NCBI GenBank assembly: GCA_016217725.1
Contig: JACRHB010000030.1
Coordinates: forward strand, 1 to 38,683
Length of the DNA stretch: 38,683 bases
Origin: Nitrospirota bacterium
Lineage (GTDB): Bacteria > Nitrospirota > Thermodesulfovibrionia > UBA6902
Direction of reading: 5' to 3'
Part shown: positions 491 through 31,857 of the stretch, one piece after another
Position numbering within the stretch: the stretch's first letter is position 1
Layout of the letters: each line of letters opens with the position of its first letter
The notes under the pieces: model-generated
Databases searched by the model: none
What the model was told of the DNA's origin: nothing
Seen by the model: the letters and a program-made list of their open reading frames with translations, nothing else
Translations under genes and position numbers: made by a program

Positions 491-580
491 CCCTCTCCCC
501 TTGTGGGAGAGGGTTAGGGTGAGGGGGAATTAAAAAGAATTTTCACCCTCCCCTTAATCCCCTCCCATCAAGGGAGGGGA
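491..580. repeat. Family A inverted pair of GC-rich hairpin+tail modules (MITE-like, no gene)
   Basis: ccctctccccttgtgggagaggg + ttagggtgagggg, about 16 nt AT spacer, then caccctccccttaat + cccctcccatcaagggagggg. The right half matches the reverse complement of 7723-7758 across about 37 nt. Confidence 0.85.
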
Positions 581-6101: not shown

Positions 6102-7667
6102 ATGCTCATCTCTCCTTCCAAAGATAAATTTATCAAAGCGGCAAAGATCGGGAAGCTTTTTCCTGTCTACACAGAGCTGCCTTTCATGCCGCCGCAGCAA
6201 ATTTATGAAAGCGTAAAATCACCATATAGCTTTCTCCTTGAAAGCATAAAAGGGCCTGAAAAGATCGCCCGGTATTCCTTCATCGGCTCGGAGCCGTTTC
6301 TGATCTTTAAGGTGAAGGACGGGATTGTGGAAGTGGAAGACAGGAGTCAAGAGTTAAGAGTTAAGAGTCGGGAGTCAGAAGTCAGAAGTCATAATACGGG
6401 AATAAAAATTCAGCCTTCAGCCTTCAGCCTTCAGCCTTCAAAAGCTCCCCTGAAGGTTCTGAAAAAGATCCTAACGGCGTACAAAGTTGAAAGGCCCGCT
6501 GATCTTCCGCCTTTTATAGGCGGGGAGGTGGGGCTTATCAGTTATGATTTCGTGCATTATTTTGAAAACCTGCCGAAGACCGCCGTTGATGACATCGGGA
6601 TACCGGATGCACATTTTCTACTGGTTGATACCGTAATAGCTGTAGACCATAAGCTTCGGAAGACATTTATAATGTCATGCCCGACGACAAGTGCAGAAGT
6701 GCAAAAGTGCAGAAGTGCAGAAGCGCAAGAGTGGGGAAATTGCTATGAAAAAGCTTGTGAGAAAATATATGCAGCGTATGAAAAGATTAAATCCGTTCCC
6801 CAACCTTCCGTAGGGGCGGGTTTGAAACCCGCCCCTACAAATATTCACATCCATCACGAAATGGGCAAAGTAGCTTACATGGATATCGTAAGGCGGGCAA
6901 AGGAATACATAAAGGCAGGCGATATATTTCAGGCTAACCTCTCACAAAGGGTATCCGCGCATATCGACGATATTGACCCCTGGCAGGTTTATAAGATTTT
7001 ACGCAATATAAATCCCTCTCCTTTTGCGGCATATCTCGACATGGGAGATTACTATATTGCAAGCTCTTCACCGGAAAGGCTGATAAGGGTGTCCGGCAAG
7101 GTGGTGGAGACGAGGCCGATCGCGGGCACAAGGCCGAGGGGGAAAGACGCCAAAGGCGACCACAAAATGAGGACGGAGCTTTTGCTGAATGAAAAAGAGC
7201 GGGCGGAGCATCTCATGCTGATCGATCTTGAGAGAAACGACCTGGGGAAAATCTCCGACTACAGCACCGTCGAAGTCGATGAGTTTATGATTACCGAGGA
7301 CTATTCACACGTCATCCATATCGTGTCGAATATTAAAGGGTCTCTTGCCGGGGGGAAGGATTGTTTTGACGCCGTACGCGCAGCCTTTCCCGGCGGGACC
7401 ATAACGGGCGTTCCGAAAGTGCGATGTATGGAGATCATCGACGAGCTTGAGCCCGTGGCGCGCGGCCCTTATACCGGTTCCATCGGCTATATAAGTTTTA
7501 CAGGCGACATGGACTTGAACATCATCATAAGGACTTTTGTAATTAAAGACAAGACCGCTTATGTTCAGGCCGGCGCCGGCATCGTCGCCGATTCAGACCC
7601 CGAGAAGGAATACTATGAAACGCTGAAAAAGGCGGAGGCGCTGATAAAAACATTGGAGGTTTTATGA
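6102..7667 (+). CDS. trpE: Anthranilate synthase component I
   Basis: DIFQANLSQRV, SSSPERLIRV, ETRPIAGTRPRG, HLMLIDLERNDLG, FPGGTITGVPKVRCMEIIDELEP, YTGSIGY, QAGAGIVADSDPEKEYYE. Confidence 0.95.
   Translation: MLISPSKDKFIKAAKIGKLFPVYTELPFMPPQQIYESVKSPYSFLLESIKGPEKIARYSFIGSEPFLIFKVKDGIVEVEDRSQELRVKSRESEVRSHNTGIKIQPSAFSLQPSKAPLKVLKKILTAYKVERPADLPPFIGGEVGLISYDFVHYFENLPKTAVDDIGIPDAHFLLVDTVIAVDHKLRKTFIMSCPTTSAEVQKCRSAEAQEWGNCYEKACEKIYAAYEKIKSVPQPSVGAGLKPAPTNIHIHHEMGKVAYMDIVRRAKEYIKAGDIFQANLSQRVSAHIDDIDPWQVYKILRNINPSPFAAYLDMGDYYIASSSPERLIRVSGKVVETRPIAGTRPRGKDAKGDHKMRTELLLNEKERAEHLMLIDLERNDLGKISDYSTVEVDEFMITEDYSHVIHIVSNIKGSLAGGKDCFDAVRAAFPGGTITGVPKVRCMEIIDELEPVARGPYTGSIGYISFTGDMDLNIIIRTFVIKDKTAYVQAGAGIVADSDPEKEYYETLKKAEALIKTLEVL
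6345..6440. repeat. Inverted pair of heptamer arrays inside trpE
   Basis: Seven units agtcaag/agttaag/agttaag/agtcggg/agtcaga/agtcaga/agtcata (6345-6393), spacer, four units ttcagcc (6409-6436). Confidence 0.85.
6691..6738. repeat. Octamer array (6 x 8 bp) inside trpE
   Basis: gtgcagaa/gtgcaaaa/gtgcagaa/gtgcagaa/gcgcaaga/gtggggaa; 48 nt, frame-neutral. Confidence 0.85.
6810..6838. repeat. Perfect palindrome inside trpE (GTAGGGGCGGGTT-TGA-AACCCGCCCCTAC)
   Basis: 13-bp perfect arms around a 3-nt loop; translated in frame as VGAGLKPAP. Confidence 0.9.
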
Positions 7668-7716: not shown

Positions 7717-8112
7717 TTATTTCCCCTCCCTTGATGGGAGGGGATTAAGGGGAGGGTGTTTTAAACATTTTTCCCAAATAACCTCAAGCACTTCTCTTGT
7801 ATTCTTCAATACTTCATTGTCCCAATACCTTAATACCTCGTAACCTTGTTGTTCAAACCATCTATCCCTTTCTCTATCCTTCCGAATCTGCTCCGGCTGT
7901 GTATGTTGGCCACCATCAAGTTCAATGATTATTTTTCTCTCAAAGCAAACAAAAGCCACAATGTACTTGCCGATAGGCTGCTGACGCTTGAATTTGAAAC
8001 CATACATACGCTTAGCCCTTAAATATTTCCATAGTACTTGCTCTGTATCTGTCGTCTGCTTTCTAAGATTTTTAGCTAATTTTGTTAATCTATCCGCCAT
8101 TTGATGATACAC
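7717..8112 (-). CDS. DUF559 domain protein (Vsr/restriction-endonuclease-like fold)
   Basis: LRKQTTDTEQVLWKYLRAKRMYGFKFKRQQPIGKYIVAFVCFERKIIIELDGGQH...WFEQQGYEVLRYWDNEVL is DUF559-like. GTG start lies in the right repeat, C-terminal HPPLNPLPSREGK is encoded by the left repeat. An internal ATG (MADRL) may be the real start. Confidence 0.9.
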   Translation of the reverse strand: MYHQMADRLTKLAKNLRKQTTDTEQVLWKYLRAKRMYGFKFKRQQPIGKYIVAFVCFERKIIIELDGGQHTQPEQIRKDRERDRWFEQQGYEVLRYWDNEVLKNTREVLEVIWEKCLKHPPLNPLPSREGK

Positions 8113-8147
8113 CCTCTCCCTAACCCTCTCCCATCAAGGGAGAGGGG
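7723..8147. mobile_element. Candidate DUF559-carrying mobile element bounded by imperfect inverted hairpin+tail repeats (family A)
   Basis: Left cccctcccttgatgggaggggattaaggggagggtg (7723-7758); right caccctctccctaaccctctcccatcaagggagagggg (8110-8147); same architecture as the gene-less pairs at 491-580, 31686-31766 and 13982-14091. Confidence 0.6.
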
Positions 8148-8181
8148 ATATGGATGATCCCATCCGATTTTCACTCATTCC

Positions 8182-31625: not shown

Positions 31626-31685
31626 CAGAAAGTCGCAATGAACTTAAAATCCTAAGCTTGTAAGCATTCATCTGCAGGCTGAAAT

Positions 31686-31766
31686 CCCCTCCTTTACAAG
31701 GAGGGGTTGGGGAGGTTTTGATAATTTTATCAATACCCCTCCTAACCTCCCCTTGTAAAGGGGAGG
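31686..31766. repeat. Family A inverted pair, gene-less, with palindromic AT spacer
   Basis: cccctcctttacaaggaggggttggggagg - ttttgataattttatcaata - cccctcctaacctccccttgtaaaggggagg. Confidence 0.85.
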
Positions 31767-31857
31767 ATTTTATTTAAAGAAGCTCCCTCAGTGAGGTCCT
31801 TATGTGACTGAGAGGGCGGAGCCGTGTAAAGATTTCGAGATTATTATTTTCTCCCGG

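Follow-up and report, generated by a model that had tools for sequence, protein, structure and literature searches.

A DUF559 nuclease gene framed by paired inverted hairpins suggests an unrecognised type of bacterial mobile element

Why should a small nuclease gene be enclosed by two inverted DNA hairpins, and does it belong to a mobile element together with the gene-less copies of these hairpins? The question was raised by a locus in a 38,683-nucleotide contig of a Nitrospirota bacterium (assembly GCA_016217725.1, contig JACRHB010000030.1, positions 1 to 38,683), which is referred to here as the window. An earlier note, made from the sequence alone, had described the gene as DUF559 endonuclease-like, enclosed by inverted hairpin+tail repeats, and had proposed it as a candidate autonomous element that moves these repeats. 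The gene lies between trpE and a gene for a BNR-repeat protein. The following features were identified:

7717..8112, minus strand: DUF559 nuclease gene, 131 aa from GTG, with a probable real start at the ATG at 8100-8098; the near-invariant Asp53 is replaced by Ala (YIVAF for YIVDF).
7723..7758, minus strand: right end (RE), hairpin CCCCTCCCTTGATGGGAGGGG at 7723-7743 plus tail 7744-7758; it encodes the C-terminal HPPLNPLPSREG.
8110..8146, minus strand: left end (LE), hairpin CCCTCTCCCATCAAGGGAGAGGG at 8124-8146 plus tail 8110-8123, upstream of the gene; the tail may act as ribosome-binding site.
491..579, plus strand: gene-less miniature of the same family, LE hairpin 491-513 plus tail, a ~16-bp spacer, RE tail 544-558 plus hairpin 559-579.
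31682..31770, no strand assigned: gene-less inverted pair of a different hairpin family (CCCCTCCTTTACAAGGAGGGG), similar to hairpins that frame other DUF559 subfamilies in relatives.

The observation of the earlier note was confirmed. The arms 7718-7759 and 8109-8150 are 83% complementary over 42 nt. The protein matches DUF559 (PF04480) over the whole domain (E 1.2e-39; 135 bits against a gathering cut-off of 20.6, residues 8-116), and its last codons HPPLNPLPSREGK lie in the repeat at 7723-7758. The GTG at 8112-8110 is located in the tail, as the note had claimed, but by our reading the ATG at 8100-8098 is the more likely start, with the G-rich tail as ribosome-binding site. Gene-less pairs in the same order, which the note had also described, are present at 491-579 and, with another hairpin family, at 31682-31770. 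In the 2.77-Mb host genome the hairpin type found at 8124-8146 occurs in 52 copies, compared to 1 for the reversed control pattern. A search of the window against Rfam 15 gave no match at gathering score, and PADLOC returned only a weak local match to DpdF. Two further repeats were noticed in trpE. A palindrome (GTAGGGGCGGGTTTGAAACCCGCCCCTAC) at 6810-6838 lies in frame within the gene (peptide VGAGLKPAPT) and looks like a GTAG-tagged REP with many copies in relatives, a repeat family separate from the one studied here. An 8-bp tandem repeat (AAGTGCAG) is located at 6689-6736, and similar AGAAGTGCAG strings occur between genes in a relative.

On one point the note had to be corrected. The right boundary had been described as an imperfect inverse of the left, but the two boundaries are not copies of one repeat. 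They are two distinct ends, the upstream LE (CCCTCTCCC-loop-GGGAGAGGG-TTAGGGTGAGGG) and the downstream RE (CACCCTCCCCTTAAT-CCCCTCCC-loop-GGGAGGGG), which remain distinct in the gene-less copies. To test this further, we analyzed 20 further places of the host genome together with the window. All 12 close pairs consisted of one LE and one RE in the same sense, 9 with tails inward, as around the gene, and 3 permuted with tails outward, while no LE-LE or RE-RE pair was found. If type and orientation were random, one pair in four would be of this kind (about 6e-8 for 12 of 12). The permuted RE-LE pairs (loci L258, L261 and L263) and several in-frame insertions inside proteins, which also have hairpins inside and tails outside, could reflect circular intermediates or tandem units. 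The window gene has exactly the LE and RE ends. Seven DUF559 loci, including Aminicenantes and Desulfobacca, have LE upstream and RE downstream on the same test, three more also match, and none is reversed. When the miniature at 491-579 was folded as single-stranded DNA, LE and RE each formed a hairpin and the two tails paired with each other (z -5.2).

To find out whether the association is general, DUF559 loci were collected from 60 relatives, together with 80 named loci from many phyla. In 119 full-length cases, the local inverted-repeat score between the 150 bp on either side was at least 14 in 83%, compared to 13% for sides taken from different loci and 0 of 436 for other windows of the same loci. 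A GC-rich hairpin was present on at least one side in 97% (control windows 18%). The loci were chosen by protein only, so the flanks are an unbiased test, although the query profile came from this class and very divergent DUF559 proteins are under-sampled. Two Xanthomonas members lack the flanks and may be settled genes. In one locus (L058) a palindromic unit AATCCCCC..TCCCCCTTTAATAAAGGGGGA..GGGGGATT sits inside another DUF559 gene, a nested insertion. Different DUF559 clades carry different hairpins. Protein similarity correlated with upstream-repeat similarity (rho 0.39, downstream 0.30, far control 0.06; 0 of 300 permutations), and on a tree of 73 proteins five hairpin families need 10 changes, compared to 30 for shuffled labels (0 of 200 as low). 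The window protein groups with one from Aminicenantes, another phylum, with the same ends.

In order to analyze whether repeat numbers follow the gene, the LE hairpin+tail pattern was counted in 245 genomes of the phylum. It occurred on average 21.0 times (median 4) in 87 genomes with a strong DUF559 match and 1.8 times (median 0) in 158 genomes without (p 2e-18; one value per genus p 1e-8; within genera p 4e-4). The reversed control pattern was absent in all but one genome. However, some genomes without a strong DUF559 hit hold many LE copies (genomes G246, 105; G088, 32; G066, 28; G040, 16); these may have lost the gene or lack it in the assembly. A complete genome without a DUF559 match (G052) has 17 CCCTCTCCC-type hairpins, mostly CCCTCTCCCTTTTGGGGAGAGGG. 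A preceding hairpin-only co-occurrence test in 60 relatives was weak (p 0.011), as only one hairpin family was counted. The note had named three conditions that would speak against it, namely DUF559 homologues generally lacking the flanks, repeats equally abundant without DUF559, and independent acquisition of gene and repeats. None of these applies, the last because DUF559 clades and hairpin families correspond and because miniatures keep DUF559 remnants (see below). That the hairpins are ordinary terminators or regulators and no mobile unit exists is very unlikely. Single hairpins often lie in intergenic regions, and GC-rich hairpins can terminate transcription, but this does not explain the tens to hundreds of copies per genome correlated with DUF559, the LE/RE asymmetry kept in gene-less copies, or the in-frame insertions described below.

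The host genome contains a second family of miniatures, ~243-bp elements with B-type ends (CCCCTCTAAAAAGAGGGG). Their ~53-bp interior aligns with the last ~15 codons of DUF559 genes in relatives, in the right place next to the 3' tail, and they are internal deletions of a DUF559-bearing unit. The family-A miniatures, to which family the window belongs, share both ends, but no clear gene remnant was identified in them. The B-type units are enclosed by outer inverted repeats (GGYTCTTTCTCATNNNNAGTGGGTA) that make 8-bp target duplications (4 perfect of 13, 70 of 104 positions alike, p 0.0016), so in this instance a transposase of another kind carries the unit. This transposon-like TIR family, with AT-rich 8-bp target duplications and a transposase not identified in our analysis, encloses DUF559 units of several hairpin families and was seen in the host genome (L232-L241) and in genomes G013 and G043 (L242-L249). 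In contrast, the family-A copies examined show no such outer repeats, 0 of 11 LE-RE copies abut a direct repeat, and the flanks of these 11 copies show no GTAG or CGTC tag at the hairpin foot.

These data bear on the possibility that another enzyme, a RAYT/Y1 or a DDE transposase, moves the hairpin pair, and that DUF559 is a cargo gene that helps the unit persist, for instance by making breaks that favour conversion toward the occupied allele. With regard to ALTERNATIVES, Y1 transposases are common in these genomes (47 of 60), and both the B-type units within the TIR element and the genomes with many LE copies but no strong DUF559 hit would fit this view. However, 0 of 20 inspected Y1 genes are framed by the hairpins, and one carries its own CGTC-type repeat (CGTCGGGG), and RAYT as owner of the repeats was rejected on the flanks of these genes, although a trans effect is not excluded. 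Moreover, family A shows no target duplication, LE numbers follow DUF559 even within genera, and the same pairing recurs in many phyla without the outer TIR. We therefore consider this explanation possible but doubtful.

Comparative evidence for insertion was obtained at several loci. In Deinococcus NW-56 the unit separates two genes that overlap in D. deserti and D. ficus, and occupied and empty sites were compared in hsdM and in hpa operons. In Methylomonas and Mariprofundus the unit lies in frame in the same loop of hsdM, where plasmid homologues have none. Others lie in frame in priA (same site in two Gastranaerophilales-like genomes), hsdS, ispE, mfd, metH and peptidase genes, with the hairpins read as linkers (gene names from our reading of the sequences). 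G013 has several copies with identical ends and different flanks. None of this shows which enzyme acted, and no insertion, excision or DNA cleavage was observed. No empty site at near-identical DNA was obtained for the window family. At trpE, the following gene is not conserved in 29 relatives, so only absence of the element is shown. The E. coli gene ycjD is a DUF559 gene located between sapF and fabI in about 3364 of 5426 complete genomes, with CCCTCTGGGGAGAGGGTTAGGGTGAGGGG-type repeats downstream; in the other strains looked at an efflux operon occupies the segment, which is not a clean empty site. At E. coli ypfG-tkt the CCCTCTGGGG-type repeat is replaced by another palindromic repeat in other strains and not simply absent, and a Sinorhizobium pair proved to be a deletion derivative, not an empty site.

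DUF559 has a solved member, 3hrl, and is related to the catalytic domain of the EDxHD homing endonuclease I-Bth0305I (PDB 3r3p) by sequence (profile E 3e-5) and by the predicted fold (mean pLDDT 89.8, Foldseek E 1.5e-4, with Vsr further down the list). A DUF559 protein of Caulobacter causes a DNA-damage response in cells lacking a methyltransferase (PMC12907096), so the family can act on DNA in cells. While the family as a whole has the complete conserved acidic/His active-site set, the window copy keeps E24, E64, D66 and H70 but has Ala in place of Asp53, which is present in 109 of 111 loci. By analogy with Vsr and I-Bth0305I this is a metal-binding residue, so this copy, the only A-type DUF559 copy found in the host genome (assembly ~93% complete), is probably dead. 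The relationship to I-Bth0305I raises the possibility that DUF559 is a free-standing homing endonuclease that spreads by cutting empty hairpin pairs and being copied into them, the hairpins having arisen and moved separately. The hsdM and priA sites occupied in different species and the ends shared by gene-bearing and gene-less pairs could be read in this way. However, at least the B-type miniatures are derived from gene-bearing units, not the reverse, since they keep a 3' gene remnant, and the insertion contexts of the unit as a whole are very diverse. This reading appears unlikely.

Taken together, we favour the view, with a probability of roughly 0.6, that the DUF559 gene and its two hairpin+tail ends form one selfish mobile unit and that gene-less LE-RE pairs are its internal-deletion miniatures. 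In this model, LE and RE hairpins would extrude when the DNA is single-stranded, the two complementary tails would pair and bring the ends together, and the Vsr-like/EDxHD-fold DUF559 protein would recognise and nick at the hairpin/tail. The unit or its miniature would then be copied into a new site, or into an existing empty pair by break repair, without a target-site duplication; the window copy itself would depend on another copy. Our analysis shows the paired ends, their distinctness, the gene remnants in B-type miniatures, the clade-specific hairpins, the co-occurrence and the fold, whereas nicking, copying, the mobilisation of miniatures in trans and any catalysis by DUF559 are inferred. 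That nuclease and hairpins form one selfish unit is well supported; that the nuclease drives the movement is the most economical reading, but remains inference. The interpretation of the earlier note is therefore only partly supported: its comparison with RAYT/REP and IS/MITE pairs is apt, but that the element is autonomous and moves the repeats is not shown.

REPtrons, RAYT/TnpA-REP genes with REP/REPIN repeats (PMC3733652, PMC3116915, PMC8266576), likewise combine one small enzyme gene framed by inverted palindromic repeats with many gene-less inverted pairs in the same genome and a repeat family matched to the enzyme subfamily. Here, however, the enzyme is a DUF559 nuclease and not a Y1 HUH transposase, the GTAG/CGTC tag is missing, LE and RE are distinct, and the gene lies in genomes that also have Y1 genes with other repeats or none. 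I-Bth0305I and Vsr share the fold and active-site layout, and selfish-gene behaviour is plausible, but DUF559 is a 110-130-aa stand-alone domain without extra DNA-binding modules, is not intron-encoded and is framed by hairpins. As in IS/MITE pairs, internal-deletion miniatures share the ends of the gene-bearing element, but there is no DDE transposase and family A makes no target duplication. The unit works like a RAYT/REP or IS/MITE pair but is not a member of either, since the defining enzyme, tags and target duplication are lacking. Rickettsia palindromic elements (PMC10969869) are also inserted in frame inside protein genes, but are ~150 bp long with a short ORF of their own and no nuclease gene, while the in-frame insert described here carries the DUF559 domain with hairpin-encoded linkers.

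Searches of open-access papers, which did not extend to subscription papers and preprints, found none that links DUF559 with flanking repeats. Short palindromic repeats are among the commonest repeats in bacterial genomes. GTAG repeats have an assigned enzyme (RAYT), whereas CGTC repeats are described as lacking a dedicated transposase and untagged families await study (PMC3733652). DUF559 is a widespread family of unknown function. It is about as likely as not that DUF559 defines a bacteria-wide class of transposable elements whose only protein is a single-domain Vsr/EDxHD-fold nuclease acting on paired, non-identical terminal hairpins, and which is the source of many of the untagged C/G-rich palindromic repeats of bacteria (CCCTCTCC-type, and possibly the similar repeats next to ycjD in E. 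coli) whose mobilising enzyme is unknown. Linking these repeats with DUF559 gives a testable enzyme for orphan repeat families, a function for a DUF, a possible new mobility chemistry based on a one-domain Vsr-fold nuclease with hairpin ends, and an explanation for in-frame insertions in essential genes such as priA, metH and mfd.
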